A DNA stretch of 64,000 nucleotides from positions 1 through 64,000 of the forward strand of contig JAOTYD010000019.1 in the NCBI GenBank assembly GCA_029862005.1, written 5' to 3'. The DNA is from Gammaproteobacteria bacterium (GTDB lineage Bacteria; Pseudomonadota; Gammaproteobacteria; GCA-001735895). Both the position numbers and the translations under genes were made by a program. Shown piece after piece: positions 25,947 to 54,339 of this stretch (positions are counted from its first letter, which is position 1; every line of letters begins with the position of its first letter). The notes beneath the pieces were generated by a model, which did not search any database, had not been told where the DNA came from, and saw nothing but the letters and a program-made list of their open reading frames with translations.

Positions 25947-28313
25947 CTACTCGGGTGATGGGACGTCGCGCACTCTCGACTTGGTCGGATCGTAAAACGG
26001 AAATCCGACAACCTTTGCCGGCAGGCGCTTCTGCTTGCCGTCGAGTTTGCCGACTTCGACTTCGGTGCCGGGGACGGCGTGTTCTAACTGCATTCGGCAC
26101 AGTGCAACATTTTTACCTAGTATCGGGGAGCGCACTGCGCTGGTGATTTCACCGACCTGGTTACGGCCGATTTCAACGCCGTCCCCATTTGCGGCCAATT
26201 CATCACCGGTAAGCTCGAGACCAACCAGCACCCGCTGGGGATTTTCCTTGCGCTTGATCAGTGCTGCCTTACCAACGAAATCGTCCTGCTTGGTACTGAG
26301 CGGCACGGTAAACGGAATTCCGGCTTCGAACGGGTCGGTCTGATCGCTGAATTCATAACCGGCGAAGATCAGCCCGGCTTCGATGCGCAGCATGTCCAGG
26401 GCTTCAAGCCCGAGCGGTGTCAGGTCGTAGGCTTCACCCGCTTCCCAGATTGCGTCCCAAACCTCGGGCGCATCATTCGGATGGCAAAATACCTCGTAGC
26501 CGAGTTCACCGGTATAGCCGGTGCGCGAAACCACGAGCGGAATTCCCTGCTCGTCGCCAATGCGCGCGATCGAAAAGCGAAACCATTCAAGTTCTTCCAG
26601 CGTCGCCTGATCGGGTCGCGTCCAGATAATCTGTTTTAAAACATCGCGGCTTTTTGGACCCTGCACCTGCAGGTTATGCAACTGATCGGTCGAGTTGCGC
26701 ACCCAGGCCTGCAGTCCGAGTGCCTCGGCCTGTTCGCGTAACCAGATACCGCTTTCATCGCTGCCCCCGATCCAGCGGAAATTATTCTGACCGAGTCGAA
26801 ACACCGTGCCATCGTCAATCATGCCGCCGTTTTCATAACACATCGCCGTGTAAACCACCTGGCCGACCGCAAGGCGGCGGATATCACGCGTGACGCAGGT
26901 CTGTAATAGCAGCTCGGCATCGGGACCGGTAACTTCGTATTTACGCAACGGCGATAAATCGATCACCACCGCGCCTTCACGGCAGGCCCAGTATTCGTCG
27001 AGCGCACCGTGATTGGTATAACTGTTTGCCAGCCAGTAGCCCGCGTACTCGGTAAAATTGCGTGTGTGTTCCGAGGTACGGCTGTGAAAACCGGTCTCCT
27101 GGGTCAATTCTTTGTCTGCATCTGCTGTCATTCTGAATGCCGTCGCTTTGTTAAATGAATTCGTGCCTGCATAAATTCGCATGTGAATATCGGTCGGATT
27201 CCAGCCGTTTGCCGGATCGACATCACATGGGCAGGCGGAAGATACGCATACCATGTCCTTGAGTGCCCGCATCAGCACATAGTCACCGGGACGTGACCAG
27301 GGCTCGTCGAAGTACATCTGGTTGCTGTTATCAATTGAGGTGTTGAAAAACAGGTTGATTGCCATCCAGCCCTTGCGTGCCTCTACCCCGTAGGGTTGCA
27401 GTGCCTGACTGAAATTGTCGGAGCAATTGACGTGCCCGGGATAACCCATTTCTTCGTAGTACTTTGCGGTACATGCGGTGCCAAAGCTGTCGTGTCGACC
27501 GCAGGTATCCTGCACCACCTCAATCATTGGCTCAAAATTCTGATCGTAGAACTTGGCATACAACCCGGGCGCCGGATAGGCGGCCCCGACCACGTGGCGG
27601 GTCGCGGTAGCATCGAGGCTGCGCTCGACACCTCGCTCCAGCATCGAGGAGTCGAAGCACTGAAAGTCGGAACATTCACGCCCCTCGACGTCGATGATCT
27701 GAATGAAATCGCCAGCCTTAACCTCGTAGGCAAACGCGGTGCGCGCCTCGATGCGCACATCTTCAAGCGGATCCGCTAATGGATCGGGCAGCCGGATTTC
27801 TGTTTCAGTCACTCCGATCGGATGTCGATGAACAAATGCCACCAGGTCGGTTACCGTGTCCTGCTGGTCGGCACGCATGTCACTACCCGGCGCGGCGACG
27901 AGACAGGTGGCGGGTTGAGCGGCGATAAATCGAACCGAATCGCCAGCAGGAGAGTAATTGCTGAATACGACGCAGCTGCGGGCTTCCTCGATTGAAATAC
28001 CAAGCCTGTTCAGCGCCTCCTTTAATTCGATGGCGCTGGGCTCGGAACTGTCCAGGATCTGTTTAAGCGTCTCGGCGCTTCCATTATTACGAGCGCCGAT
28101 AAGTGCCGAATCGCTGCGACCACCGGCATCGAACACGGTGATTTCACCCGGTTGCAATCCTTCCGGGCTGACCAGCTGGAGTTCGTCGCCGGCCTGTAAG
28201 TTCAACGCTACACTGCCGCCACCGCGTACCCGGTAGCGTTCGGTATTCGGCGGAAGCGCGTTAATTCCCGGCTCGCGTACCCTGACTGGTGAGATAAACA
28301 GGGGTGCATTCAT
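25947..28313 (-). CDS. tdm: Trimethylamine N-oxide demethylase (Tdm), DUF1989-GcvT
   Basis: Converts TMAO to dimethylamine plus formaldehyde, with the C1 unit captured by THF. The 788-residue architecture is that described for Tdm of Methylocella and roseobacters: an N-terminal metal-binding DUF1989 region (clearest at residues about 190-400, with FGTACTAKYYEEMGYPGH and the cysteine cluster SSACPCDVDP) followed by a THF-binding GcvT domain from about 410 (EYWACREGAVVIDLSP, QVQGPKSRDVL, VSRTGYTGELGYEVF, GLEALDMLRIEAG). It is 3 bases downstream of the gntR stop, so the two are coupled. tmm, which makes TMAO, is 14 kb away. A different GcvT-type demethylase substrate remains possible. Confidence 0.82.
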   Translation of the reverse strand: MNAPLFISPVRVREPGINALPPNTERYRVRGGGSVALNLQAGDELQLVSPEGLQPGEITVFDAGGRSDSALIGARNNGSAETLKQILDSSEPSAIELKEALNRLGISIEEARSCVVFSNYSPAGDSVRFIAAQPATCLVAAPGSDMRADQQDTVTDLVAFVHRHPIGVTETEIRLPDPLADPLEDVRIEARTAFAYEVKAGDFIQIIDVEGRECSDFQCFDSSMLERGVERSLDATATRHVVGAAYPAPGLYAKFYDQNFEPMIEVVQDTCGRHDSFGTACTAKYYEEMGYPGHVNCSDNFSQALQPYGVEARKGWMAINLFFNTSIDNSNQMYFDEPWSRPGDYVLMRALKDMVCVSSACPCDVDPANGWNPTDIHMRIYAGTNSFNKATAFRMTADADKELTQETGFHSRTSEHTRNFTEYAGYWLANSYTNHGALDEYWACREGAVVIDLSPLRKYEVTGPDAELLLQTCVTRDIRRLAVGQVVYTAMCYENGGMIDDGTVFRLGQNNFRWIGGSDESGIWLREQAEALGLQAWVRNSTDQLHNLQVQGPKSRDVLKQIIWTRPDQATLEELEWFRFSIARIGDEQGIPLVVSRTGYTGELGYEVFCHPNDAPEVWDAIWEAGEAYDLTPLGLEALDMLRIEAGLIFAGYEFSDQTDPFEAGIPFTVPLSTKQDDFVGKAALIKRKENPQRVLVGLELTGDELAANGDGVEIGRNQVGEITSAVRSPILGKNVALCRMQLEHAVPGTEVEVGKLDGKQKRLPAKVVGFPFYDPTKSRVRDVPSPE

Positions 28314-31075: not shown

Positions 31076-31174
31076 GCTTGTTTCAAATTATTCCGGTGCG
31101 GGCTTGCTCTGCACCGGGATTTAGATTTAAGGCAGCCCCGGCAGCCTAATCTTTAACTCTAAGAGGATAATCTT

Positions 31175-32113: not shown

Positions 32114-32937
32114 CAACATCCCATGACATGGGGCTGCACGAGGAGCAGCTCGCGGGTCGTACTCAGCAGCGGTTTTTCTCGGCCACAGAGGAAGAGAATT
32201 TTACCTATCCATGGGCTTACGAAGTTGATTTCGAGAAAGTAGCCGAATTTGACGCCGCGGAAATGGAAATTTCGGAGATCAACATCAAGATTCGTGATTT
32301 GATGAAGTCCGGGGTTGGTACGATTACGGTGAAAAATCCGCGCGCCAAGCACTCGCTCGGTGTCGGAATCCTGAATCGTCTGAATCTGAACTTCGAAGGT
32401 AGCCTCGGCTACTTTGGTTGTGGATTGATCGATGGCCCCAATATCCGTATTAGTGGTCGTGTGGGCTGGTCATGCGCAGAAAACATGATGGCGGGTAAGG
32501 TGGTCATCGAAAAGAATGCGGGTTCTTTGTTCGGCGCCGCGATTCGCGGTGGTGACCTTGTCTGTAGGGGACAGGCAGGCGCGCGCGTCGGCATAGATCA
32601 AAAGGGCGGAACCATTATCGTCGGTGACAGTGTCGGTGCCTTTACCGGTTTCATGATGCAGCGCGGCCGCATGATTATCCTCGGCGATGCCGGCGATAAC
32701 CTCGGTGATTCGATGTACGACGGCACGATTTACGTTGGTGGCAAGATCGCGAGCCTTGGCGTCGACTGTGTCGAAACCGAATTGACCGATCTCGACAAGC
32801 GTTATCTCGAAGGCAAGTTATCGCAATACGACATGTCGGCTCCCAACGGTGTCGACAGCATGATCAAGCTGACATCCGGCAAGCAATTGTGGAATTACGA
32901 CAACCTCGAACCAACGGAAAAGAAACTGGTGCTTTAG
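32101..32937 (+). CDS. mgsB: GltB C-terminal-domain subunit MgsB/GlxC
   Basis: A 278-residue protein of the glutamate synthase C-terminal right-handed beta-helix type, with repeated G-x2-G-x3-G turns (GYFGCGLIDG, GSLFGAAIRGGDLVCRGQAGARVG, GAFTGFMMQRGRMIILGDAG). A roughly 60-residue N-terminal extension that begins MGSVTTSHDMG precedes the domain. It is the structural subunit MgsB of N-methylglutamate synthase, or GlxC by rhizobial naming. The start overlaps mgsA, and mgsC follows after 28 bases, so the three are translationally linked. Confidence 0.82.
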   Translation: MGSVTTSHDMGLHEEQLAGRTQQRFFSATEEENFTYPWAYEVDFEKVAEFDAAEMEISEINIKIRDLMKSGVGTITVKNPRAKHSLGVGILNRLNLNFEGSLGYFGCGLIDGPNIRISGRVGWSCAENMMAGKVVIEKNAGSLFGAAIRGGDLVCRGQAGARVGIDQKGGTIIVGDSVGAFTGFMMQRGRMIILGDAGDNLGDSMYDGTIYVGGKIASLGVDCVETELTDLDKRYLEGKLSQYDMSAPNGVDSMIKLTSGKQLWNYDNLEPTEKKLVL

Positions 32938-32965
32938 GCACGGGTTTTGATCCTGGAGAATAAAG

Positions 32966-34306
32966 ATGTCTGATAAAAAAATAGATCCCTATCACCTTGG
33001 AAACAGTTTTATTTTTCCGCCCGAAGTGATGAACGATATTCACATCAAGGCCGAGCTCGGTCGGTACCGCATGCGTGGCTTTTCGCTGTTCAAGAAAATT
33101 CCAACCTGGGACGACCTGACATTCATGCCGGGTACGCTGACGCGTTTTGTAATCGAGGGTTATCGCGAAAAATGTTTAACCAAGACCATCATTGGTCCCA
33201 ATGCCAAGATTCCGTTAGAACTCGATATCCCGGTTTATATCACCGGTATGTCTTTCGGCGCCTTAAGTTATGAGGCCAAGACCGCGTTGGCACGTGGTGC
33301 CACCATGGCAGGTACCGCGACCTGTTCCGGTGAGGGTGGCATGATTCCGGACGAGCGTCGCTACTCGTCAAAATGGTTTTACCAGTGTATCCAGTCGCGC
33401 TATGGCTTCAATCCGAATCACCTGCGTCTTGCCGATGCAGTCGAGTTCTTTATCGGCCAGGGCTGCAAGGTTGGTCTCGGTGGTCACCTGATGGGGCAGA
33501 AGGTCACCGACCAGGTGGCTGAAATGCGTTCATTACCCGCCGGTATCGATCAGCGTTCACCGGCGCGTCATCCCGACTGGATGGGACCGGACGACCTGGC
33601 GCTCAAGATCCAGGAAGTGCGTGAAGCCACCGATGGGCAGATTCCGATTCAGTTGAAACTGGGTGCGGCGCGGGTATACGACGACGTGCGAATGGCCGCC
33701 AAGACCGGCCCTGATTCGATTTATATCGACGGTATGGAAGGTGGTACCGGAGCTGGTCCGCATCTTGCGACCGAGGATACCGGTGTTCCCGGTATTGCCG
33801 CGATTCGCCAGGCCAGACAGGCGCTCGATGATGTCGGTATGTCAGGTGAAATAACCCTGGTTTATGCGGGTGGTATCCGTAACGGTGCCGACCTTGCGAA
33901 AGCGATTGCGCTCGGTGCTGACGCGGTTGCAATTGGCCACTCGGCCTTGATCGCGCTGAACTGTAACAAGGATATTCCGGAAGCCGATTTCCCAAATGAA
34001 ATGGGTGTTGAACCAGGCTACTGCTATCACTGTCACACTGGGCGTTGCCCGGTAGGTGTCGCGACCCAGGATCCGATCCTGCGCAAACGTCTCGATCCTG
34101 ATTCGGCGGCGGAGCGGGTTTACAACTTTCTGCATACACTCACCATCGAAGCGCAGTTGTTCGCGCGGGCTTGCGGCAAGACCAACATCCATTCGCTGGA
34201 GCCGGAAGACCTGGCTGCATTGACGATGGAAGCGTCTGCCTGTGCGCAGGTGCCAATGGCGGGTACGCAACACACTGTCGGTCGTCCCGACATGACACGT
34301 TATTAA
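32966..34306 (+). CDS. mgsC: FMN/FeS glutamate synthase-type subunit MgsC/GlxD
   Basis: The 446-residue FMN-binding barrel of a glutamate synthase-like enzyme. FMN- and 2-oxoglutarate-site motifs are present: SFGALSYEAK near 95, SGEGGM near 115, KLGAARVYDD near 230, DGMEGGTGAGP near 255 and YAGGIRNGADLAKA near 297. The [3Fe-4S] cysteine motif CYHCHTGRCPVG lies near 353. As MgsC it would carry out the reductive step giving N-methylglutamate from the amidotransferase product and 2-oxoglutarate. It keeps all the catalytic motifs, unlike the degenerate copy at the end of the protein encoded at 47658. Next gene is 13 bases downstream. Confidence 0.83.
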   Translation: MSDKKIDPYHLGNSFIFPPEVMNDIHIKAELGRYRMRGFSLFKKIPTWDDLTFMPGTLTRFVIEGYREKCLTKTIIGPNAKIPLELDIPVYITGMSFGALSYEAKTALARGATMAGTATCSGEGGMIPDERRYSSKWFYQCIQSRYGFNPNHLRLADAVEFFIGQGCKVGLGGHLMGQKVTDQVAEMRSLPAGIDQRSPARHPDWMGPDDLALKIQEVREATDGQIPIQLKLGAARVYDDVRMAAKTGPDSIYIDGMEGGTGAGPHLATEDTGVPGIAAIRQARQALDDVGMSGEITLVYAGGIRNGADLAKAIALGADAVAIGHSALIALNCNKDIPEADFPNEMGVEPGYCYHCHTGRCPVGVATQDPILRKRLDPDSAAERVYNFLHTLTIEAQLFARACGKTNIHSLEPEDLAALTMEASACAQVPMAGTQHTVGRPDMTRY

Positions 34307-34319
34307 GGGGGGCGCGAAA

Positions 34320-34709
34320 ATGACCGAACTAAGTATTAATCATTTCCTCGAAGGCGATGGCGTTGACACCGAGCGTGAAAAAATCATTGGTCAACACATC
34401 GGTTATCGTTATGACGTAAACCTGGTGCCCGACATGGAGCGTTGTACACCTTTTTTACAAAAATACATGGAAATTATGGGCTGGAGCGACCTGAACTGGC
34501 TTGAAGACGTGCACATGGGTTACGAGGAAGGCAACCCGGCGGTGTTCGATCGCAATATCAATGGCTGGGTGACCATTCCCGAAAATATTAAATTACCGGA
34601 TAACCAGCAGGATCGGGACATGATCGCACGTGAATTGTTGATCAAGTTTCAGATGGCGAAAGGACATCCGATGGTCGATCTGCGCAAGGCATACGAAAAG
34701 TTTACCTGA
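34320..34709 (+). CDS. Small acidic protein co-transcribed with mgsABC
   Basis: A 129-residue soluble protein starting MTELSINHFLEGDG. I do not recognise it. It is acidic, has no cysteine cluster beyond a single Cys, and contains MERCTPFLQKYMEIMGW and WVTIPENIKLP. Its start lies 13 bases after the mgsC stop with the SD AAGGGGGGC, and a rho-independent terminator follows 23 bases after its stop. It is thus the last gene of the GS-mgsA-mgsB-mgsC operon. A role as an accessory or regulatory subunit of the synthase is a reasonable inference. Confidence 0.75.
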   Translation: MTELSINHFLEGDGVDTEREKIIGQHIGYRYDVNLVPDMERCTPFLQKYMEIMGWSDLNWLEDVHMGYEEGNPAVFDRNINGWVTIPENIKLPDNQQDRDMIARELLIKFQMAKGHPMVDLRKAYEKFT

Positions 34710-34732
34710 GATAAGGTACGTAAAACGAAGCC

Positions 34733-34767
34733 AAAAGGATTATTTTAAGATACCGGTAATCCTTTTT
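34733..34767 (+). terminator. Rho-independent terminator of the GS-mgsABC operon
   Basis: A perfect 10-bp stem AAAAGGATTA/TAATCCTTTT with a 14-base loop ends in a T run. It separates the synthase operon from the first amt gene, which therefore needs its own promoter in 34768-34956. Confidence 0.8.
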
Positions 34768-34956
34768 GCCATTTTGATCATGAAGTCTTTATATGTTATT
34801 TATACGGATCTTTAGTAAAAATATTAATGGTGAGGATTTTCATACGGGTAGTTAATTTTTCCTTTGAATTTACAGGCTGTTTGAAAGTCATTGCGTGATA
34901 TGCCGGCAGGATGCCTGTCTAAATTTTACAATTCTCATAACTAAAAGGGGGAGAAA

Positions 34957-36363
34957 ATGGATAACGAGCTAACCGCGCTCGGGATAATATTTACCGAGTT
35001 TTATTATTGGGTCACCGTCGTGTTTATGTTCCTGATTCACGTCGGTTTCTGTGTTTATGAGGTGGGCGCCTCACGCTACAAAAACCACACGCACACCCTG
35101 ATGAAGAACACCATGGTTATCCCGCTGGTAACCGTCACCTTCTTCTTCTTCGGCTGGTGGATTTATTTTGCGTTTGTCAATGGTCCCTGGATCATCGGTC
35201 CCCTGGTCGATGCACCCTTTGCCACGCCGTGGAGCGAACTGATGGGCACGCATATGGGTGGTGCACCGCAAGAAGGTGGTGTCCTGACTGCCGACGATAC
35301 CGCCTTCTGGGCGCGTATTAACGGCGTGTTCTGGGCCGCATTCCTGCTGTTCTCGTGGACTGCCGCTTCCATCGTCTCCGGCGCCGTAATCGAGCGTATC
35401 CGTCCCAGCGCTTTCTGGGTACTGGCCGTGGTCATCGGTTCATTTACCTGGATCATCGATGCTTCCTGGGGCTGGTCCTGGAACGGCTGGATGGTACAAA
35501 AACTGGGCTATCACGATGCCTACGCGTCGGGTGTAATCCACGCGATAGCCGGCGGTTTCGCCCTGGGTGTACTACTGGTGCTGGGTCCACGCATCGGCAA
35601 ATTCGCCGCTGACGGTACGCCAAGGAATATTAATCCGCATAATCCCTGGCTGGTAACCATAGGACTGTTCCTCATCTATACCGGTTTTTGGGGCTTCTAC
35701 GTGGCCTGTAATATCCCGATTATCGATGTCTATGGTCCCGCGATGCTGGATGTGCCTGACAAGACCTTCTTCAGTGCCACCAATATCTACCTGCAGCCAA
35801 CCACTTTGTCTGCAATTACCTTTAACTTCCTGATGTCGCTGTCGGGCGGTTTGATGGCGGCCTACCTGATTTCGGATGGTGACGCGTTCTGGACCTACTC
35901 CGGTGGTCTGGCGGGTATCATCGGCGCCTCGTCGGGTAACGACCTGTACCACCCCATCCAGGCCATGCTGATTGGCGCTGGCGGTGCAATCCTGGCTTAC
36001 AAGATGCATTTCTGGGTAGAGCGCAAGTTCAAGATCGACGACGCCGTCGGTGCGGTTGCGGTGCATGGTTATGCTGGTTTTTACGGTATCGTCGTGGCCG
36101 GTTTCATGCTGTGGGGTTATCCTTCCTCACCGTTTGAGGGATATGCGCCCATTACACCCTGGGGTAACTTCCTGGGGGCCTTGATCATGTTCTTCGTACT
36201 GGGTTTCTTTCCGGCACTGATTGTGTCGAAGATCCTGCACGCCATGGGCAAGCTGCGCATCCCGCGTGAAATTGAATTAGTAGGTCTTGATATCAACTAC
36301 GAAACGCAGAGAGCGGTGGATGCCGCAGAAGTAGCGCGAGCGATTCGTGAAGAAGCCGGGTAG
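34957..36363 (+). CDS. Amt-family ammonium/methylammonium transporter (first copy)
   Basis: An inner-membrane channel of 468 residues with about 11 segments. The pore twin histidines are visible in SGVIHAIAGG near residue 190 and AVHGYAGFYG near 368. The usual PGLALFYGG motif of Amt/AmtB near the N-terminus is replaced by HVGFCVYEVGASRYKN, shared with the second copy in this window; this marks a divergent Amt branch. Uptake of ammonium or methylammonium would feed the synthase operon upstream. The C-terminus (VDAAEVARAIREEAG) lacks an obvious GlnK-docking signature. SD AAGGGGGAG is strong; a small membrane protein gene follows. Confidence 0.88.
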   Translation: MDNELTALGIIFTEFYYWVTVVFMFLIHVGFCVYEVGASRYKNHTHTLMKNTMVIPLVTVTFFFFGWWIYFAFVNGPWIIGPLVDAPFATPWSELMGTHMGGAPQEGGVLTADDTAFWARINGVFWAAFLLFSWTAASIVSGAVIERIRPSAFWVLAVVIGSFTWIIDASWGWSWNGWMVQKLGYHDAYASGVIHAIAGGFALGVLLVLGPRIGKFAADGTPRNINPHNPWLVTIGLFLIYTGFWGFYVACNIPIIDVYGPAMLDVPDKTFFSATNIYLQPTTLSAITFNFLMSLSGGLMAAYLISDGDAFWTYSGGLAGIIGASSGNDLYHPIQAMLIGAGGAILAYKMHFWVERKFKIDDAVGAVAVHGYAGFYGIVVAGFMLWGYPSSPFEGYAPITPWGNFLGALIMFFVLGFFPALIVSKILHAMGKLRIPREIELVGLDINYETQRAVDAAEVARAIREEAG

Positions 36364-42508: not shown

Positions 42509-43849
42509 TCAGGTTTGCAGGTAACTCTCCAGCGAATCGTCGAGCGCGTCTTTCCATGGCGTGTGATGTGCCGGCGCCATGGTGCCGGTCAGGGCTGACT
42601 TATAGCCGTTATCACGGAAGGTCATGATGTTTTCCTTCTTGTGTTTTTTCCACTGGAAGAAGGCTTCATTCGCACCGGCACAATCAAACTCGGGGTAATC
42701 GGTCAGCGCCATCAGGTCCATGGTGTACTTGCCCTGGAACTCAATGCAGGCGTAATCGTCGGGCAGGTTATCTTCGGTCTCGCGCCACTTGTCGATATCC
42801 GCGTGCATCTCAGCCTGCGAAGGAACATCGAGCCGTCCAAGGATCACGTCGCGTGCATACCAGGCCTGGGCGTCGAACATATTGAAGGTATACCACTGGT
42901 CCTGCATCCCGAGGTACATCAGTTTGGGGTTGTATTCCCAGACCACGCCATTATAGAGATTGACGGGATAGAGTCGATTGTTGGTCTTGAGCTTCAGATT
43001 CTCTGCCATGAACGGGAAGTGATGCAGGTAGCCGGTGCATAGAATAATCGCGTCGACCTCGGCGGTGCTGCCGTCCTTAAAGGTGGCGGTATTCTTTTCG
43101 ACCTTTTCCAGTAGAGGCACTTCCTGCCAGTTATCGGGCCACTTGTACCCCATCGGCGCGGTACGATGCGACACTGTGACCGATTTGCAGCCGTACTTCC
43201 AGCACTGCGATCCGATGTCTTCGGCCGAATAGGAAGTGCCGATAATCAGGATATCCTTATTCTTGAATTCCATGGCATCACGGAAGTCATGCGCATGCAG
43301 TACACGCCCGTTAAAGCTGTCGAACCCGGGAAACTCGGGCACGTTCGGAGTCGAGAAGTGACCGCTTGCAACGATGACATGATCGAATTCCTCGGTGTAC
43401 TCGACGTCCTTTTTTTCGTCCTGGACAGTAACGTGAAACATGCCTTCATGCTCGTCGTAGGCCACATGACGCACCGGCGAGTTAAATCGTATCCAGTCTC
43501 GTACCCCAGCTTTCTTCACGCGCCCCTCGATATAATCGTACAGCACCGCACGGGGTGGGTAAGAGGCGATCGGACGACCGAAGTGTTCTTCGAACGAATA
43601 ATCGGCAAATTCCAGGCCTTCCTTCGGTCCGTTAGACCAGAGGTACCGATACATGCTGCCGTGAACCGGTTCGCCGTATTGATCGAGGCCGGTGCGCCAA
43701 GTGTAATTCCACAAGCCGCCCCAGTTGTCCTGCTTCTCGAAACAGACGATATCGGGAATATCAGCTCCCTTTTCCTTCGCCGACTGGAAGGCTCTTAACT
43801 GAGCCAGGCCGCTGGGACCGGCTCCTATCACTGCAACGCGCTTGCTCAT
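42509..43849 (-). CDS. tmm: Trimethylamine monooxygenase Tmm
   Basis: Flavin-containing monooxygenase oxidising TMA to TMAO with NADPH and oxygen. The 446 residues match bacterial Tmm closely as I know it: the opening [18 protein letters not shown] is the FAD-binding GxGxSG/PSG site, [20 protein letters not shown] and [16 protein letters not shown] are Tmm-characteristic, [12 protein letters not shown] near 180 is the FMO identifying motif, and GTSYSAED near 205 is the NADPH site. It is convergent with the secreted protein gene and divergent from an XRE-cupin regulator. Its product TMAO is the substrate of the Tdm encoded at 25947. Other FMO substrates such as methylated sulfides can also be oxidised by this family. 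Confidence 0.93.
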
Positions 43850-44060: not shown

Positions 44061-44693
44061 ATGCCTGATCAGGATAACCAGCAATCTAAGTACGATTTGA
44101 TGCAGCAGCAACACAGTGTTGACGCGCTGGAAGTTGCGATTGGCAAACAGGTGCGCACGTCGCGCAAGCGACTTAACCTGACCGTGGCCGCGCTCGCCAA
44201 GCAGGCGCAACTATCGACCGGGATGCTGTCAAAGATTGAAAACGGTCAGACATCGCCGTCGCTGGCGACGCTGACTTCACTCGCCAATGCGCTGCAGGTG
44301 CCAGTGACTTCGTTCTTTCGTGGTTACGAGGAACAACGCGACGTAACCTACATCAAGGCCGGCGAAGGTTTGTCGATCGAGCGTCGTGGTTCGGGTGCCG
44401 GGCACCAGTACCAGCTGCTCGGGCACACTATTGGCAAGCCCTATAATATTGAACCCTACCTGATTACGATCGACGATGAGTCGGAAGTGTTTCCTGTGTT
44501 TCAACACGCCGGAACCGAGCTGATTTACATGCTGGAAGGCCGGGTTACTTACCGCCACGCCAACAAAACCTACACACTCGAGCCGGGTGACACCCTTTTC
44601 TTCGATGCCGAGGCCTCGCATGGTCCGGATGAGATACAAAAATTACCCTGTCGCTACCTTTCGATTATCGTTTCGGAGGCAACAAGCATCTAA
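44061..44693 (+). CDS. XRE-cupin regulator of the second mgs-type operon
   Basis: A 210-residue regulator with an N-terminal HTH (IGKQVRTSRKRLNLTVAALA, then STGMLSKIENGQTSPSLATL, residues about 30-75) and a C-terminal cupin (HAGTELIYMLEGRVTYRH near 150, EPGDTLFFDAEASHGPDE near 175). It is divergent from tmm and 101 bases upstream of the mgsA-like gene. A perfect palindrome directly after its stop codon is its likely operator. It is a paralogue of the regulator encoded at 14178. Confidence 0.9.
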   Translation: MPDQDNQQSKYDLMQQQHSVDALEVAIGKQVRTSRKRLNLTVAALAKQAQLSTGMLSKIENGQTSPSLATLTSLANALQVPVTSFFRGYEEQRDVTYIKAGEGLSIERRGSGAGHQYQLLGHTIGKPYNIEPYLITIDDESEVFPVFQHAGTELIYMLEGRVTYRHANKTYTLEPGDTLFFDAEASHGPDEIQKLPCRYLSIIVSEATSI

Positions 44694-44794: not shown

Positions 44795-45703
44795 ATGTGC
44801 GGTATAGCGGGTATTTTATACAAGCAGGCGGGCACCCATGAAATTGGCAAAACGCTGCTCGACATGCTCGACGGTTGCCAGCATCGCGGCCCGGACAGCA
44901 CGGGTTTCGCATTGTATGGTGAAGAGAAGGACCAACTTCAACTGCGTTTTATCGTTCCGACTGAGACGGCAGCGCGACAGAAGGCGATCGATAATATTGC
45001 TTCGTTGCTGGCACGTTACGATGCGACCATAGAATCTGAACAATCGGTTGGCTGCTCTTATCAGATCGCGGTCAATTTCGAAGGTGATTTGCTTGATTTC
45101 ACCAAGCATATAGAGGAACACGCCAAGCTGGTTTCGGTGGGCCACACGCTCGATATCATCAAGGATGACGGCACCGCGCACGAACTCGACGAGATTTACC
45201 AGGTTGGCGATGTCAGGGGTACCCACGGCATCGGTCACGTGCGCCTCGCCACCGAGTCGGCGGTGCGGCCCGAGGCTGCACACCCGTTCTGGGCGACCGG
45301 TTTCGAGGATATCGCGATCGTACACAATGGCCAGATTACCAATTACTGGAAGATGCGCCGTCGCCTGGAACGCCGGGGTTTCACCTTTCATACCGACAAC
45401 GATAGCGAGCTGGTCGCGGTTTATCTCGCCGACAAGCTTGAACAGGGCGAGACCCTGGACAGCGTGCTTAAAACCGCGATCGATGATCTCGACGGCACCT
45501 TTTCATTCCTGGTATCGACTCCGAATGAAATCGGTTATGCCAAGGACAATCTGGCGGCAAAACCGATGGTGTTGTACGAAACCGATGACATGATCGCAAT
45601 CGCCTCCGAGGAAGTCAGCCTGAACCGGCTGTTTCCCGGCCAATCCATCAATTCCACCGAACCGGCGCCGGGGACCCACCAGACATGGTCACGATCGATT
45701 TAA
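44795..45703 (+). CDS. MgsA/GlxB-like glutamine amidotransferase subunit (second copy)
   Basis: A 302-residue class II amidotransferase-like protein. I begin it at ATG 44795 (MCGIAGILYK) so that Cys2 becomes the N-terminal nucleophile; AGGAG lies about 8 bases upstream. GPDSTGFALYG, GHVRLATES and IVHNGQITNYW are conserved as in the copy at 31175, and the overall layout is the same. It opens a compact operon with the fusion protein at 45685, overlapping it by 19 bases. Presumed substrate is a gamma-glutamylalkylamide, by analogy with N-methylglutamate synthase; glutamine itself is possible. Confidence 0.8.
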   Translation: MCGIAGILYKQAGTHEIGKTLLDMLDGCQHRGPDSTGFALYGEEKDQLQLRFIVPTETAARQKAIDNIASLLARYDATIESEQSVGCSYQIAVNFEGDLLDFTKHIEEHAKLVSVGHTLDIIKDDGTAHELDEIYQVGDVRGTHGIGHVRLATESAVRPEAAHPFWATGFEDIAIVHNGQITNYWKMRRRLERRGFTFHTDNDSELVAVYLADKLEQGETLDSVLKTAIDDLDGTFSFLVSTPNEIGYAKDNLAAKPMVLYETDDMIAIASEEVSLNRLFPGQSINSTEPAPGTHQTWSRSI

Positions 45704-47661
45704 GCCAGGTCAGCATCACCGAGGCAAACGAGCAGATCTGCGCCTACGGGCGCGATCGCCTCGATGTTGAAATCATAAATCCCGATGCGCGCCACAATAT
45801 CGGCGTTGGCCTGGTCGAACCGATCACGGTGCACGTTAAGGGCTCCGCCGGCTATTTTTGTGGTGGCCTGTCTGACGGCGCGCATTACGAGATCGAGCAC
45901 AATGTGGGCTGGGCCGTGGGCGACAATATTTACTCCGGCTCGGTCGTAGTCGGTGGTAACGCCGGCGCGATCCCCGGGGTCGCGATCCGCGGCGCAGAAA
46001 TTGTCGTGCGCGGCAACATGGGCAGCCGTGCCGGGCAGGTCATGAAGGCCGGCACGTTGTGCTGTGGTGGTAACGCTGCCTTCATGTCGGGTTACATGAT
46101 GTATGGAGGGCGCATCATCATTCTCGGTGACGCCGCTGCCAAGGTGGGACAGGACATGAGCGCGGGTGAAATTTTCGTCGGTGGCAAGATCGAAAGCCTC
46201 GGCAACGACACCATGATCGTCGACATGGAATCCCACGAACGCGATGACCTCATGGAATTCCTCGAGCGCTACAAGCTTAAATTTAACGGTGACTTCACCA
46301 AGGTAGTCAATGCCGGCAAGAAACTGCGTTATGCCAATGTCGAACCGCGCTCCCGGCCGCAACCTTTCTTCGTCTCGTCGAAGTCCAGCAACTATTGGAA
46401 TTCTAAAGTGCAGGAAGATATCTGGATCAAGGGCGAGGTCGGGCGCTACCGCATTCGCGGTTACGGCGCATCCAAGCCGGTACCGCATCTGAATGACATC
46501 GCTTTTACCAGGGACATTTCCACGGTTGCGCCGAATCCCGATGAATTAACCGACATCAACCTCAAAACAACGGTCGGCGGGCGCTTCGGCGCCAGGCCGC
46601 TGAGCCTGTCGATGCCGGTCATGATTGCGCCGATGAGTTTCGGTGCACTGAGCCGCAAGGTCAAGATCGCACTCGCACGCGCCTCGCGCTTGTCCGGCAT
46701 TTCGGAAAATACCGGCGAGGGCGGTATGCTCGACGAGCAACGCGCCGAGGCCGACCAGTTGATCTTCCAGTGCCTGTCAGGCCGGCTCGGCTGGAACGTC
46801 AAGGACATGCAGCGCGCCGATGCAATCGAGATTTATATTTCGCAGGGTGCCAAGCCGGGTCTCGGCGGCCAGTTGATGGCGAAGAAGGTTACCCCGGAAC
46901 TGGCGGCGATTCGCGGTATCCCGGTGGGTATCGACCTGCGTTCACCGTCGCGCCACCCGGACGTGCTCGGTGCCGATGACCTCGTCATCAAGCTGCAGGA
47001 ATTTCGCGAAGCGACTTTTCACAAGGTGCCGATCGGCATCAAGATGGGTGCGGGCCGCGTCAACGACGATATCAAGATCGCCTACAAGGATGGTTTCGAC
47101 TTCGTTGAACTCGATGGCCTGCAGGGGTCCACCGGCGCCGCCAGCACCGAGGTGCTCGAAAACGTTGGCATCCCGACCCTGTCTGCGGTGCAGGAAGCGG
47201 TCGACGGCCTCAATGAAATTAATGCCGGCGACGACATGAACCTGGTCATGATGGGTGGTATCAAGGATGGCGTCGACGTGATCAAGATGCTGGCGCTGGG
47301 CGCCGATTGTACCTCAGTCGGCACCGCGGCGATTATCGCTGGCGGCTGTATCGCCTGCATGCAGTGCCACGTGGGTACCTGCCCGGTTGGCATTGCCACC
47401 CAGGATCCGGTGCACGAGGCACGCTACGACCTCGATCGCCAGGCGATGAATATCCACCGTTACCTCGAATCGCTACGCTGGCAAATTGCCGCGATCACGA
47501 AGGCGCTCGGTTACGATGACGTGCACCGGGTAAACCGCGGCGACCTGGTCGCACTGACACCGGAGGCAGCTGATATCACCAGCCTGCCGTATGCGCCCGA
47601 ACACAAGGAAACCCGGCGACCGCTGACCGGTCTCGAACTACTGGACCGGAAAGCCGGATGA
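45685..47661 (+). CDS. Fused MgsB-MgsC-like subunit (GltB helix + FMN/FeS barrel)
   Basis: A 658-residue natural fusion of two subunits that are separate at 32101-34306. Residues about 1-225 are the GltB C-terminal beta-helix domain (GYFCGGLSDGAHYEIE, GNAGAIPGVAIRGAEIVVRGNMGSRAG). Residues about 240-658 are the FMN-binding glutamate synthase barrel with PMSFGALSRKVK, GEGGMLDEQ, KMGAGRVNDD, DGLQGSTGAA and the cysteine motif CMQCHVGTCPVG near 558-569. The domain order is reversed relative to GltB itself, where the barrel precedes the helix. All catalytic motifs are intact. The stop overlaps the next start by four bases (ATGA). Confidence 0.82.
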   Translation: MVTIDLSQVSITEANEQICAYGRDRLDVEIINPDARHNIGVGLVEPITVHVKGSAGYFCGGLSDGAHYEIEHNVGWAVGDNIYSGSVVVGGNAGAIPGVAIRGAEIVVRGNMGSRAGQVMKAGTLCCGGNAAFMSGYMMYGGRIIILGDAAAKVGQDMSAGEIFVGGKIESLGNDTMIVDMESHERDDLMEFLERYKLKFNGDFTKVVNAGKKLRYANVEPRSRPQPFFVSSKSSNYWNSKVQEDIWIKGEVGRYRIRGYGASKPVPHLNDIAFTRDISTVAPNPDELTDINLKTTVGGRFGARPLSLSMPVMIAPMSFGALSRKVKIALARASRLSGISENTGEGGMLDEQRAEADQLIFQCLSGRLGWNVKDMQRADAIEIYISQGAKPGLGGQLMAKKVTPELAAIRGIPVGIDLRSPSRHPDVLGADDLVIKLQEFREATFHKVPIGIKMGAGRVNDDIKIAYKDGFDFVELDGLQGSTGAASTEVLENVGIPTLSAVQEAVDGLNEINAGDDMNLVMMGGIKDGVDVIKMLALGADCTSVGTAAIIAGGCIACMQCHVGTCPVGIATQDPVHEARYDLDRQAMNIHRYLESLRWQIAAITKALGYDDVHRVNRGDLVALTPEAADITSLPYAPEHKETRRPLTGLELLDRKAG

Positions 47662-50174
47662 AACTGAACGACGCTGACTACCAGTTCTCGATCACCGCGA
47701 CACCGGATCTCGATGACGATACCAACGATATCCATTTCGTGCCGGCACCGTGCCAGGTGGCCTGCCCGATCGGCACCGATGCGCCGTCCTACATTGCCTA
47801 CATCTGGGAAGGCAAGAACGAGGAAGCGCTGGAAGCCATTACCGCGACCAACCCGTTCAGCGCGATCTGCGGCCGTGTATGCGATGCGCCCTGTGAGCCT
47901 GCCTGCCGCCGTGCCGATAGCGACGGTGCAATCGCGATCCGCAACCTCAAGCGTTACGTGCTCGAAGCTCTCGGTCCCGGATTTGCGCTGCCACCGGTCG
48001 AGGTTACCCAGGACAAGTCCGTTGCCATCGTCGGCGCCGGCCCGGCCGGACTGACCGCCGCGCATGACATTGCCGAAGCCGGCTACGAGGTGCACGTTTA
48101 CGAGGCCACCGACAAGCTCGGCGGCATGATGTACTGGGGTATTCCGCGCTTTCGCCTACCTGAGTCGGCCATGCAGCAGGATATCGATCGCATGCTGGCG
48201 CATTGCCCCGGCATCAAGATTCATCTCAACAGCGCGCTCGGCGAACAGGTATCGCTCGATGAACTGAAGCAAAAGCATGACGCGGTGCTGTTATCGATCG
48301 GCGCTTTCGTCGGCAAGCCGATGGGTATTCCCGGTGAAAAAGCACCCTTCGTCGAAGACGGCGTCAGCTTTTTATACCGCGTGAATGACGGTGAGCGCCC
48401 GACCTTGCCGGAAACCGTGCTCGTCATTGGTGGTGGTGATGTCGCGATGGATGCCTGCCGCGTAGCCAAACGCCTGCCGGGTGTCAAGCAGGTCAAGGTT
48501 ATCTACCGTCGCGACTTCGAAGCCATGCCGGCGCGGCGCGAGGAACTGCACGGCGCAATCGACGAAGGCATCGAGGTGGTATACAACACGCAGCCAGTCG
48601 AGGTCATCGACGGCAAGGCGCTGCGTTGCGTGCGCACCGAGCTGGGCGAGCCCGATGAGGACGGTCGTCGCCGACCGATTAATATCGCGGGTTCCGAGCA
48701 CGATATCGAGTGCGGACTGGTGATCGCCGCGGTCGGACAGAAGGCCGAAAACGACGAACTCGACGCCCTCGGAATGATGGACTGGGATCGCGTCAGAACC
48801 GAGCTCGAGGGCATGCAAACCACGGATGCAAAGGTGTTTGCGGCCGGTGACGGCGCTTTTGGCGGCTCGACCATCGTCGAGGCCATGTACCAGGGCCATC
48901 GCGCCGCCTATTACATCAAAGCCCATCTCGAGGGTAACGACAAGCCACTGCCATACCGCACCCCGTACCGCACGCGGCGGGTGCCGATTTGCAACGATCC
49001 GGCCTGGGAACTGAATCCCCGGGTCGACCAGAAATTTCATGGACTCGGTCAGATTCCGATCGAGTTTCCCGAGATCGAATCAACCTATACCGCCGACGAG
49101 GCGAAGTTCGAAGCCGCGCGCTGTTTCCGCTGCGATGCCGAAACCGGGTCAGCGGATTACACCGTGACCAGCCGCGAGTCGATTTTCGCGATGTCGCGCG
49201 TCACACCAAAAGACGTCGAGCTAGAAGCCAGTATCCTGCAGGGGCGCCTGGAAAACCGCGACAATCCGTTTGGCGAAGATCACGAGGCCACGCTCGATGA
49301 CCTGGTATTTCTGCCGGCGAACCTGTCGCGCCTGGTGATCGATCCCTACCGCGAGGACTGTAAAACCGCGACCGACCTGGGTGCAATCAACAGCCTGCAG
49401 CTCGATATTCCATTTGCGGTCACTGGTCTCGATCATGCCCCGGATGAAATCCGCGATGCCTATGCCAGCGCCATAGCGCAACATGGCGCCGCCTATATTG
49501 GAGTTGCACCGCTCGGCGGGGATGCCCGGTGGATACAGATTGCCGACGGCGACGCCGATGCCGCGGCCGACGCGGTCGTGTTCAGGGCTGACCCGGCGCT
49601 GAAGGCAGGCAAGGTAACCAGGGCAGTGGAAGCTCAACCGACCGGCCTGCTGGTCGACAGCCACAACCTCGCACAGGCGCTGCCGTTTGCGCTGTTGCAG
49701 GAACTCGATTTTCTGGTGCTCGATGCGGGTGACGGCCTGCCGGAAATTGCTTCCGAACTGACCAGCGCACCCGATATTTCGATTTTAAACCACGCGGTCA
49801 GCCAGCTGCGGGCGATGAACCGGGAAGAAGATATCGACCTGGTTTATTTCGGCGGTCTGCGCACCGGCACCGATAGCGCCAAGATGCTTGCGTTGGGCGC
49901 CAATACCGTGGTCATCGGTGCGGCTGCGGCGATCGCACTCGGCGCCGATATTGCCGCCGGTGAGCCGCTCTTCAATGCCGACCTGAAGCGGGATGATCGC
50001 GAGGAGCGCAGTTACAACCTGCTGCAGGCATTCAATGCGGAAGCCGCGATGATGGCGCGCTGCACCGGCAAAACCAACGTACACAACCTCGAGCCCGAGG
50101 ATCTGCGCGCGATCACGATCGCGGTATCGCAAGCGGCGGGCGTGCCCATGGCGGGAAGTTTGAATCAGCATTGA
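47658..50174 (+). CDS. GltD-like oxidoreductase fused to a degenerate FMN barrel
   Basis: An 838-residue protein. Residues 1-480 are a glutamate synthase small-subunit type reductase: cysteines CQVACP near 32 and CGRVCDAPCEPACRR near 71-85 for FeS clusters, the FAD site VAIVGAGPAGLTAA near 122, the NADPH site VIGGGDVAMDA near 256 and AAGDGAFGGSTIVEAM near 395. Residues about 540-838 align with MgsC (LDDLVFLPANLSRLVIDPYRED, VYFGGLRTGTDSAKMLALGA, CTGKTNVHNLEPEDL). They lack the [3Fe-4S] cysteine motif and the GEGGM and GGTGAG segments, so this half is probably catalytically dead and structural. It likely supplies NAD(P)H electrons to the fusion subunit encoded just upstream (4-base overlap). 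Confidence 0.8.
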   Translation: MKLNDADYQFSITATPDLDDDTNDIHFVPAPCQVACPIGTDAPSYIAYIWEGKNEEALEAITATNPFSAICGRVCDAPCEPACRRADSDGAIAIRNLKRYVLEALGPGFALPPVEVTQDKSVAIVGAGPAGLTAAHDIAEAGYEVHVYEATDKLGGMMYWGIPRFRLPESAMQQDIDRMLAHCPGIKIHLNSALGEQVSLDELKQKHDAVLLSIGAFVGKPMGIPGEKAPFVEDGVSFLYRVNDGERPTLPETVLVIGGGDVAMDACRVAKRLPGVKQVKVIYRRDFEAMPARREELHGAIDEGIEVVYNTQPVEVIDGKALRCVRTELGEPDEDGRRRPINIAGSEHDIECGLVIAAVGQKAENDELDALGMMDWDRVRTELEGMQTTDAKVFAAGDGAFGGSTIVEAMYQGHRAAYYIKAHLEGNDKPLPYRTPYRTRRVPICNDPAWELNPRVDQKFHGLGQIPIEFPEIESTYTADEAKFEAARCFRCDAETGSADYTVTSRESIFAMSRVTPKDVELEASILQGRLENRDNPFGEDHEATLDDLVFLPANLSRLVIDPYREDCKTATDLGAINSLQLDIPFAVTGLDHAPDEIRDAYASAIAQHGAAYIGVAPLGGDARWIQIADGDADAAADAVVFRADPALKAGKVTRAVEAQPTGLLVDSHNLAQALPFALLQELDFLVLDAGDGLPEIASELTSAPDISILNHAVSQLRAMNREEDIDLVYFGGLRTGTDSAKMLALGANTVVIGAAAAIALGADIAAGEPLFNADLKRDDREERSYNLLQAFNAEAAMMARCTGKTNVHNLEPEDLRAITIAVSQAAGVPMAGSLNQH

Positions 50175-50231: not shown

Positions 50232-51548
50232 GTGGCTAAAGATCTAGAAGCGATTGCGAAATCCAAAAAAATAAAATATTTCCTGGTGAGCTGGGTTGAC
50301 CTGTTTGGTGTGTTGCGCGCCAAGTTGGTACCGGCACGCGCCATCAAGGGCATGCAGAAGGACGGCGCCGGGTTTGCCGGATTTGCCGCATGGCTCGATA
50401 TGACGCCGGCACATCCGGACATGTTTGCGGTTCCCGATCCTGACAGCCTGATCCAGTTGCCCTGGAAGCCTGAAATTGGCTGGGTTGCAGGGGATCTGTG
50501 GATGGACGGCAAGGAAGTAGAGGCTTCGCCGCGCGTCGCGCTCAAGCGTCAGCTGGCCAAGGCTAGCCGCAAGGGATACCGTATGAAAACCGGGGTTGAA
50601 TGCGAGTATCACTTGATCACGCCCGATGGCGAAAACATTGCCGACAGCCATGACACCCAGCCCAAACCCTGTTACGACCAGCTCGCATTGATGCGTCAGT
50701 ACCCGGTGGTTGGCCATATCTGCGACTGTATGCTCAAACTCGGCTGGAATCCGTATCAGAATGATCACGAGGACGCCAATGGCCAGTTCGAAATGAACTG
50801 GGATTACGACGATGCCCTGAAAACTGCCGACAAGCACGTGTTCTTCAAGTTCATGGTCAAATCGATTGCCGAAGAGCACGGCATGCGCGCGACCTTCATG
50901 CCCAAGCCGTTCAAGCACCTGACCGGTAACGGCTGTCATGCGCACGTGTCGTTGTGGGATCGCGCCGGCAAGAAAAACCTGTTCGAGACCAATCGCAAGG
51001 ACCCGCGCGGGCTGGGCTTGTCGCCACTGGCCTACAAGGCGCTCGGCGGTATCATGCATTCTGCCTCTGACCTGGCCGCGATTTTCAACCCGACCGTAAA
51101 CAGCTACAAACGTATCAATGCACCGCGCACCATGTCCGGCGCGACCTGGTCGCCGAACGCCGTCACCTATGCCGGCAACAACCGTACCCACATGATCCGC
51201 GTACCTGAGGACGGACGTTTCGAGCTGCGCCTGATGGATGGTGCGGCAAATCCTTACCTGTTGCAGGCGGGCGTGCTGATGGCGGTACTCGATGGTATCG
51301 ACAACAAGCGCGATCCGGGAGAGCCGACGCATCTCAATATGTACGAAGAAGGCCATCGCGCCAAGAGTCCGCGCATGCTGCCGCTGAACCTGCTCGATGC
51401 GATCAGGCAATTCGATAAAAACAAGGTCGTCCGCGAAGGTCTTGGCGATGAGCTGGTCGATGCCTACGTCAAACTCAAGATGCAGGCCTGGGATAGCTAT
51501 GCAACGCACCTGAGTAGCTGGGAACGCGAAAACACGCTCGATTGCTAA
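50232..51548 (+). CDS. glnT: Type III glutamine synthetase GlnT / gamma-glutamylmethylamide synthetase
   Basis: A 438-residue glutamine synthetase of the GlnT class; characterised gamma-glutamylmethylamide synthetases (GMAS) of methylotrophs and roseobacters belong here. Motifs are GVECEYHLI near 118, NDHEDANGQFEMNW near 177, GNGCHAHVSLWD near 237, NPTVNSYKRI near 295 and FELRLMDGAANPYL near 336. N-terminal FLVSWVDLFGVLRAKLVPA and LDMTPAHPDMFAVPDP are class-typical. Translation begins at GTG 50232 after SD AAGGGGG. Place in an operon with mgs-type subunits and 6 kb from tmm supports methylamine ligation to glutamate; plain glutamine synthesis cannot be excluded. Known in methylotrophs as gmaS. 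Confidence 0.85.
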   Translation: MAKDLEAIAKSKKIKYFLVSWVDLFGVLRAKLVPARAIKGMQKDGAGFAGFAAWLDMTPAHPDMFAVPDPDSLIQLPWKPEIGWVAGDLWMDGKEVEASPRVALKRQLAKASRKGYRMKTGVECEYHLITPDGENIADSHDTQPKPCYDQLALMRQYPVVGHICDCMLKLGWNPYQNDHEDANGQFEMNWDYDDALKTADKHVFFKFMVKSIAEEHGMRATFMPKPFKHLTGNGCHAHVSLWDRAGKKNLFETNRKDPRGLGLSPLAYKALGGIMHSASDLAAIFNPTVNSYKRINAPRTMSGATWSPNAVTYAGNNRTHMIRVPEDGRFELRLMDGAANPYLLQAGVLMAVLDGIDNKRDPGEPTHLNMYEEGHRAKSPRMLPLNLLDAIRQFDKNKVVREGLGDELVDAYVKLKMQAWDSYATHLSSWERENTLDC

Positions 51549-51583: not shown

Positions 51584-52492
51584 ATGTTTACCAGTCTGAG
51601 CCTGAAAGCACGGGCCAGCCTGGCCTGTGCCTATAGCGGCGTCGCCTGGGGTCTTTTCTGGATTCCGCTACGGGGCATGGACAACGCCGGGGTGACCGAT
51701 GCCTGGGCCACGGTGCTGTTCTACGGTATACCGTTGCTATTGTTTTCTCCGTGGATATTCAGGAACTGGCGACGCATTACCAGCTGTGGCTGGCAGCTGC
51801 ATTTCATCGGTATCACAACCGGGGTTGCGCTTGCGTTTTACTCCAACGCGCTACTCTATACCGAGGTCATTCGGGGGTTGGTGCTGTATTACACGACCCC
51901 GGTCTGGTCGTTGTTACTGGCCCGTATCGTACTTGGGGAAACGATAACCGCACCGCGGGTTCTGGCCATTGCATTTGGTTTGGCCGGCATGCTGGTAATG
52001 TTCGGGATTGATGTCGGTTTTCCGTGGCCGAGAAACACAGGTGACTGGATGGCGTTGATTGGCGCCGTCGGTTGGGCGGTAGCGGCGGTATTGCTGCGCA
52101 AGGATGATGGCAGTCGCAGCATGGAAATATGTTCGGTCTATTTTTTCTACGGCGTCATCGCCGCGATTGTAATGGCGATATCACCGATGGCCGGTGAAAT
52201 CGAGATGCCAGACTGGTCTGTCGTTGTCGATGTCCTGCCCTGGGCATTGCCAATCGCAGTTATCGTAATTCCCGGTGCTTACGCGGCTTTCTGGGGTGCG
52301 CCGCACTTGAACCCCGGAGTAGTTGGTTTACTGTTCATGACGGAACTCAGCGTGGGTGGGATTACCGCTGCGATATGGGCCAACGAACCGCTCGGCGTGC
52401 GCGAACTGACTGGAATCGGGTTAATCACGCTTGCGGGCTTGAGTGAATTTATCTATACGCCGATGCGCCGGGCGTTATGGCGCGATAGCTAG
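51584..52492 (+). CDS. EamA/DMT-family transporter
   Basis: A 302-residue drug/metabolite transporter with about 10 membrane segments and two EamA repeats, the first ending near VLGETITAPRVLAIAFGLAGMLV and the second near ANEPLGVRELTGIGLITLAGL. It follows glnT by 35 bases and is probably the last gene of the operon. Export of an amine, amino acid or a pathway intermediate is possible; the substrate is unknown. Confidence 0.85.
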   Translation: MFTSLSLKARASLACAYSGVAWGLFWIPLRGMDNAGVTDAWATVLFYGIPLLLFSPWIFRNWRRITSCGWQLHFIGITTGVALAFYSNALLYTEVIRGLVLYYTTPVWSLLLARIVLGETITAPRVLAIAFGLAGMLVMFGIDVGFPWPRNTGDWMALIGAVGWAVAAVLLRKDDGSRSMEICSVYFFYGVIAAIVMAISPMAGEIEMPDWSVVVDVLPWALPIAVIVIPGAYAAFWGAPHLNPGVVGLLFMTELSVGGITAAIWANEPLGVRELTGIGLITLAGLSEFIYTPMRRALWRDS

Positions 52493-52665: not shown

Positions 52666-54339
52666 ATGGCAAAAAGCGATATCGAAATTGCACGTGAAGC
52701 AACCCTGAAACCGATTACCGAAATTGCGCAAAAGCTCGATATTCCACCCGAAGCTTGCAAGCCCTTCGGACACGACAAGGCGAAATTGACTTCAGAATTT
52801 ATTAATTCATTGCAGGGAAAAAAGGACGGCAAGTTGATTCTGGTTACCGCGATTTCTCCGACTCCGGCAGGCGAGGGCAAAACCACGACCACGGTCGGAC
52901 TGGGTGACGGGCTTAACAGCATCGGCAAGAAAGCCGTGATGTGTCTGCGCGAACCGAGCCTGGGCCCCTGCTTCGGAATGAAAGGTGGCGCCGCGGGCGG
53001 AGGATATGCCCAGGTCGTGCCGATGGAAGATATCAACCTGCATTTCACCGGGGATTTTCATGCCATCGGCGCGGCGCATAACCTGCTGTCGGCGCTGGTT
53101 GATAACCATGTCCAGTGGGATAATAAATCGGGGATTGATCCACGCCGTATCACCTGGAAGCGCGTCATGGATATGAACGACCGTACGTTGCGTGACATCA
53201 CCATTGGCCTCGGTGGTCCCGGCAACGGTACCCCGCGCGAGAGTGGTTTCGATATCACGGTTGCCTCCGAAATCATGGCTATTTTCTGTCTCGCCACCGA
53301 TCTCGACGATCTCGGACGCCGCATCGGCAATATTGTTGTCGGCTACACGCGTGATCAGAAACCGGTACATGCACGTGACGTCAATGCCCCGGGCGCGATG
53401 ACCGTGTTGCTCAAGGATGCATTCATGCCGAACCTGGTGCAGACGCTCGAAAATAATCCAGCCTTCATCCACGGCGGCCCGTTTGCCAATATCGCGCACG
53501 GTTGTAACTCGGTAATTGCTACTAAAACCGCGCTCAAGCTGGCCGATTACGTCGTTACCGAGGCCGGGTTTGGTGCCGATCTGGGTGCTGAAAAGTTCTT
53601 CGACATCAAGTGTCGCAAGGCAGGTTTGAGTCCGGATGCGGTGGTGCTGGTTGCGACTGCGCGAGCGCTCAAAATGCACGGTGGTGTCCCCAAGGACCAG
53701 CTTGCAGGTGAAAATGTCGAGGCCATCGTCAAGGGTTGCGATAATCTGGGTCGCCATATCCGCAACCTGAAACAGTTCGGCGTACCGGTAACGGTCGCGA
53801 TCAATCGTTTTTCCGCCGACACCGAGGGTGAACTAAAAGCAATCCGCGAGTTTTGCGACGAGTTCGGTGTCAAGGCCTTTGACTGTAACCACTGGGGCGA
53901 GGGCAGCAAGGGTACCCAGGAACTTTCCAAACATGTGGCCGAGGTTGCCGATTCCGGCCAGGCGCAGTTCCATACGTTGTACGATGACAAGATGCCGTTA
54001 TGGGACAAGGCACGTCACATCGCACGCTCGCTATACGGCGCGGACGATATTATCGCCGACAAAAAAGTCCGCGATCAGTTTGCCAAATTTGAAGCCGATG
54101 GTTATGGTCACTTCCCGGTTTGCATGGCCAAGACCCAGTACAGCTTTTCCACCGACCCTGCGCTGATGGGGGCGCCTAGCGGGCACGAAGTACCGATCCG
54201 CGAAGTTCGCCTGTCGGCGGGGGCCGAGTTCATCGTCGTGGTCTGTGGCGACATCATGACCATGCCAGGATTGCCACGGGTGCCGTCGGCGGACAATATT
54301 CATCTGAATGCGGATGGCCAGGTCGAGGGATTGTTCTAG
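52666..54339 (+). CDS. fhs: Formate-tetrahydrofolate ligase
   Basis: ATP-dependent formyl-THF synthetase, 557 residues from ATG 52666 (SD TTTGGAGA, about 6 bases). The P-loop is [22 protein letters not shown] near 65, followed by [23 protein letters not shown] and [16 protein letters not shown], all FTHFS signatures; [17 protein letters not shown] and [10 protein letters not shown] are further along. In methylated-amine catabolism by heterotrophs this enzyme runs toward formate and ATP, taking 10-formyl-THF made by FolD. Position at the end of the island fits that use. Confidence 0.97.

Follow-up and report, generated by a model that had tools for sequence, protein, structure and literature searches.

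Three consecutive genes at positions 44795–50174 of the window, the whole 64-kb stretch of DNA analyzed here, most likely encode a variant of N-methylglutamate synthase (NMGS). Judging from the sequence, we assign a probability of about 0.65 to the reading that they form a three-subunit, glutamate-synthase-like NMGS driven by NAD(P)H, with a dead FMN barrel acting as a scaffold. The window is part of a gammaproteobacterial genome of 4.0 Mb in 105 contigs. Its central feature, an 838-aa protein (47658..50174, forward strand), consists of a GltD-type NAD(P)H reductase module (residues 1–500, 47658..49157) and an MgsC-like pseudo-barrel devoid of the flavin/substrate loops and of the FeS segment (residues 501–838, 49158..50174). 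The fusion architecture is real and conserved. The open literature yielded no account of GltD fused to a dead barrel, and as subscription papers lay mostly outside that coverage, an earlier description is possible.

The two partner genes lie immediately upstream on the same strand. The first (44795..45703) encodes a 302-aa class-II glutamine amidotransferase (GATase) of the MgsA/GlxB-like type with its catalytic Cys2 present, the start being ATG 44795 and not TTG 44765; the second (45685..47661) encodes a 658-aa protein combining a GXGXG domain with a live FMN barrel. The ATG of the 838-aa gene overlaps the stop of the 658-aa gene by four bases (ATGA), in agreement with the original prediction of a live catalytic barrel directly upstream. 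The ORF at 51584–52492, likewise of 302 aa, is not this partner; it encodes an EamA transporter.

Downstream on the forward strand follow gmaS (50232..51548), encoding a gamma-glutamylmethylamide synthetase (type III GS) near the solved RhGmaS 7cql, the 302-aa EamA transporter (51584..52492) and the formate-tetrahydrofolate ligase gene fhs (52666..54339), the latter two belonging to a conserved operon frame. On the other side, the set is preceded by an HTH-cupin regulator (44061..44693, forward strand) and by the trimethylamine monooxygenase gene tmm (42509..43849, reverse strand; NF058570 above cut-off). The genes around the set also include folD, and the same 64-kb window holds, in addition to tmm, the trimethylamine N-oxide demethylase gene tdm (25947..28313, reverse strand; NF053776 above cut-off). 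The neighborhood is thus one leading from trimethylamine via methylamine to one-carbon units. Sarcosine-oxidase-type genes found elsewhere in the genome are candidates for the N-methylglutamate dehydrogenase.

Residues 1–500 of the 838-aa protein are an intact GltD-type reductase. Pfam models Fer4_20 (residues 30–103) and Pyr_redox_2 (121–413) match far above their cut-offs, and the module has an FAD motif near residue 121 and an NAD(P) motif near 253, as well as the FeS cysteines of the small subunit of GOGAT. Eight cysteines, six of them near the N terminus (C32, C36, C71, C75, C79 and C83) and two in a CxxC motif (C489 and C492), are invariant in 15 of 15 sequences from three families and would suffice for two [4Fe-4S] clusters. 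None of the curated NCBIfam cut-offs for a named GltD family was reached, the best match being NF009410 with 407 bits against a cut-off of 516. GltD-like modules fused to other enzymes or serving them (NF009410/PRK12771 type; 9bov and 9n5u, NfnA) share the C-x3-CP and C-terminal RCxxC motifs, but the 838-aa protein differs from these in that its partner is a dead glutamate-synthase-type barrel. A search for an unfused orthologue of the module at E 1e-90 among 369 genomes of the class returned fusions only. The full-length structure model of the protein was unusable (pLDDT 40). An assembly or frame artefact was rejected, the fusion being present with an uninterrupted frame in three families.

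The C-terminal part is predicted to have the barrel fold of the glutamate synthase family and to share its ancestry. Pfam Glu_synthase (PF01645) matches above cut-off at residues 700–763 only (E 7e-7), and the model of the isolated domain shows a TIM-like core, with confidence confined to this core at about domain residues 84–320. The best structural matches of the model in a second-look alignment were glutamate synthases (1ofe, Z 17.2; 7mfm, Z 16.5), although the model was built from a shallow alignment including two intact paralogues, which may favor the fold. Over aligned columns, this part is approximately 34% identical to the MgsC-like barrel of a second cluster in the window (cluster A, 32966–34306), 29% to canonical MgsC and 22% to the 658-aa live barrel. 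Its best-conserved segments, residues 541–560 and 801–820, are common to MgsC and largely lost in the live barrel, in accordance with the MgsC-like outline originally recognized. In the barrel tree, the branch leading to the pseudo-barrel is very long, and a topology joining it to the 658-aa barrel could not be rejected (p-AU 0.12); the MgsC ancestry therefore rests on the identities and the shared segments.

To score the site residues, 16 intact barrels (canonical MgsC, cluster A, the 658-aa barrel, GltB and others) were compared with 11 C-terminal parts. Among 62 columns that are invariant or nearly so in the intact barrels, 30 were lost from all 11 parts and 16 persisted in 10 or more. The losses comprise MSxGALS, the GEGG loop, the long stretch GLGG...K...R...HPD and the lysine at MgsC position 231, such that residues 501–838 lack the loops MSxGALS, GEGG and QGxKxG..GG that mark a catalytic FMN barrel. 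The decay of the barrel through loss of a GEGG-type loop is thereby confirmed, residues of GEGG and MSxGALS being among the columns kept in 0 of 11, and so is the description of the protein as a GltD-type reductase fused to a decayed FMN barrel. One element of the original prediction did not hold: the missing [3Fe-4S] cysteines had been taken as decay from MgsC, but canonical MgsC is itself devoid of the triad (present in 0 of 30).

The loss of these 30 columns together with purifying selection makes the C-terminal barrel a maintained pseudo-barrel, which probably would not bind FMN at all. The dN/dS ratio is 0.14–0.19 in the barrel and 0.03–0.10 in GltD, indicating purifying selection on both and a weaker one on the barrel. 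That the barrel is a functionless tail decaying on the reductase would agree with its faster change, its identity across families being 44% in comparison with 66% for GltD; we nevertheless regard this as very improbable given the dN/dS values, the frame open in three families and two segments that are 78–81% identical across families. Another unlikely, though less remote, explanation makes the barrel a flavin donor or a regulatory sensor, through binding of a phosphorylated ligand (FMN or a regulator) at the phosphate-side motif that it retains. Residues G302, G303, D309, K312 and G317 (MgsC numbering, phosphate side) are indeed kept in all 11 pseudo-barrels, the other kept sites being scattered structural positions; the MSxGALS, GEGG and GLGG...K loops are gone, however, and the retained glycines may serve to maintain the fold and nothing else. 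Docking of the reductase appears the likeliest role of the pseudo-barrel because its gene occupies the position of MgsC, it is closer to MgsC-type barrels than to its live partner and it conserves the MgsC segments.

The 658-aa barrel retains the motifs NTGEGGM, QGAKPGLGGQL and GLQGSTGA, and the C-x5-C-x4-C triad for a 3Fe-4S cluster is kept in the live barrel at 17 of the 17 loci checked. The full triad is absent from canonical MgsC, both in a first set (8/8, with one genome, G023, keeping two of the three cysteines) and in 30 of 30 sequences sampled across Pseudomonadota. Within approximately 1.5 kb of these 30 genes, gmaS was found in 25 cases and a GltD-like gene in none. The absence of the triad holds in every canonical mgsABC locus examined (L113–L142, L089 and L076–L078), and the papers on canonical MgsC among those consulted in the open literature do not state it; as a mark of the MgsC type it is derived from the present analysis and not from the literature, and the 658-aa barrel departs from it. 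Since the live barrel keeps a triad that the canonical one lacks, the set is read as a variant working like NMGS and not as a member of the canonical MgsABC. With the triad in this barrel, the putative electron path from NAD(P)H would be complete.

The strongest evidence for the NMGS identity is the positional exchange with canonical mgsABC. One genome of the same genus (G029) has the frame tmm(-)/HTH-cupin/[slot]/gmaS/EamA/fhs at 91–97% identity to that of the window, but its slot, bounded on the left by the HTH-cupin regulator, holds canonical mgsABC with 33–50% identity to the window proteins. The gene order matches the canonical GATase–GXGXG–MgsC–gmaS, with the fused dead barrel in the position of MgsC, and as in known NMGS a GATase with N-terminal Cys, a GXGXG domain and an FMN barrel are encoded together. 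The genus is represented by 31 genomes. Those with gmaS number 25, and of these 19 carry the new set, 6 canonical MgsC and none both, when canonical MgsC is counted at 78% identity or more and one genome (G024) is counted for the set by a contig-end fragment; the 6 genomes without gmaS have neither. Both types of set usually share the slot between the HTH-cupin regulator and gmaS. On the gmaS tree we counted six changes of type, the maximum that six minority tips permit, and three sister or near-sister pairs are of opposite type: G015/G020 (support 100/99), G007/G008 (98/94) and G016/G029 (94/86). As MAGs are incomplete, the single absences are weak, but the pattern is not. We read the complementarity and the six type changes as a sign that functionally equivalent cassettes have been swapped repeatedly. 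The placement of the set in methylamine metabolism is supported. In one genome (G010; L102, L103), the HTH-cupin/gmaS slot is empty and the three-gene set stands on another contig as its own unit.

Within its own order, 18 of the 41 genomes carry the fusion, which also occurs in two further gammaproteobacterial families (f94 and f45), always accompanied by the GATase gene and the 658-aa GXGXG-barrel gene, and the three genes stay together wherever contigs allow. All 26 genomes with the fusion have gmaS. The recurrence in three families under purifying selection argues against chance. The own genome was the sole match among 398 sampled Pseudomonadota in a search outside Gammaproteobacteria, and no plasmid carried the fusion at 80% coverage; the named organisms with relatives of the 838-aa protein are gammaproteobacterial MAGs, including the Olavius algarvensis Gamma 3 symbiont. 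The set forms an operon with gmaS in the window, in most of the genus and in f94, but not in f45, and the two are apart in G010. In f94, two genomes have the set adjoining gmaS without canonical MgsC, and a wider search around this family met just two genomes of its order, each carrying the fusion. In f45, all five genomes with the set also carry gmaS and canonical MgsC elsewhere, in a locus mgsABC-gmaS-mgd apart from the set, and gmaS was absent from the four searched genomes that lack the set; the set is thus not a replacement there and may possibly have a second role. In one f45 genome (G785), the set follows urease genes, and DMFA2-type N,N-dimethylformamidase-like and ring-hydroxylase-like proteins are encoded near (L048 12942–16663).

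The f45 arrangement bears on whether the set instead serves nitrogen assimilation, as a glutamate synthase using NAD(P)H or as a synthase acting on some other amine or amide, with its place beside gmaS serving nitrogen re-assimilation. The set has every part of a GOGAT, namely GATase, FMN barrel with 3Fe-4S triad, GXGXG and GltD, and the G785 set after urease genes, with the DMFase-like protein near and canonical mgsABC elsewhere, would suit such a role. We consider this unlikely, although the most credible of the alternatives: the genome has true gltB and gltD genes, found separately on contig 23, so that the set need not be the glutamate synthase of the cell. Within the genus, the set and canonical mgsABC are strictly complementary, and gmaS accompanies the fusion in every genome, which also argues against it. 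In comparison with GltBD (2vdc, 6s6x, 7mfm), which likewise contains every functional module, among them GltD and a barrel bearing the 3Fe-4S triad, the set has the large subunit split over two genes, the order of barrel and GXGXG reversed and GltD fused to a pseudo-barrel.

With MgsABC (GlxBCD; Methyloversatilis, Methylobacterium extorquens, Paracoccus aminophilus), the set has in common a GATase, a GXGXG domain and an FMN barrel beside gmaS, the operon slot in relatives and presumably the product. Canonical MgsABC consists of three short subunits with no GltD and an MgsC without the triad, whereas the new set has GXGXG and barrel in one chain, the triad in the barrel and a GltD reductase bearing a dead barrel, and its identity to three canonical sets is merely 32–41%. 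RhGmaS (7cql, PMC7948447) is a close homologue of the gmaS product (E 2e-182), whose gene is a neighbor of the fusion gene.

The window contains a second GATase/GXGXG/FMN-barrel cluster (31175–34306), also present in most same-genus genomes. It is a possible alternative NMGS and as such counts against the NMGS reading of the three-gene set; in the f94 genome G133 it was not detected at the threshold used. The wider region (29606–36363) encodes a divergent glutamine-synthetase-like protein (489 aa), a GATase (312 aa), a GXGXG protein (278 aa), an FMN barrel with a cysteine motif (446 aa), an ammonium transporter and a 129-aa protein that matches no Pfam family. Identity of the barrel to MgsC is approximately 50%, and the cluster is kept in most of the genus. 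Elsewhere in the genome, a 590-aa ORF on contig 27 (about 23300–24430, L063) has an apparent Rieske-type domain before a glutamate-synthase FMN barrel, and similar barrels in frames of 520–650 aa occur in many relatives.

For the three-gene set, we propose that the product of gmaS makes gamma-glutamylmethylamide (GMA), from which the amidotransferase subunit would free methylamine into a channel. In the 658-aa live barrel, methylamine and 2-oxoglutarate would form an imine, to be reduced by FMNH2 to N-methylglutamate. Electrons may pass from NAD(P)H into the 838-aa subunit, with its FAD and putative pair of 4Fe-4S clusters, then to the 3Fe-4S cluster of the 658-aa subunit and on to FMN. The dead C-terminal barrel, retaining the MgsC-type segments 541–560 and 801–820, would tie the reductase to the complex as a scaffold. 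Such docking is probable from the conserved segments and gene position; the pseudo-symmetric heterodimer of dead and live barrel that had been envisaged is a guess.

A published account (PMC6237917) describes the redox cofactor of NMGS as unidentified, and older enzymology by Pollock and Hersh, as cited in the same paper, concerns a redox-neutral exchange of glutamate and methylamine. The canonical operons, with no reductase and a barrel without the triad, are in keeping with such an exchange. It is about an even bet that two interchangeable NMGS with opposite redox logic exist, the canonical one cluster-less, reductase-less and probably redox neutral, the other wired to NAD(P)H through a reductase held by a barrel pseudoenzyme, and that operons swap these cassettes repeatedly. 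The NMGS step is part of the turnover of methylamine in the sea, a process relevant to a climate-active gas (PMC7948447). The fusion clearly illustrates how a domain of an enzyme can become what appears to be a docking part within its own complex, and the cassettes replacing each other beside gmaS, one NAD(P)H-wired and one without triad or reductase, would make the question of the NMGS reductant directly testable.
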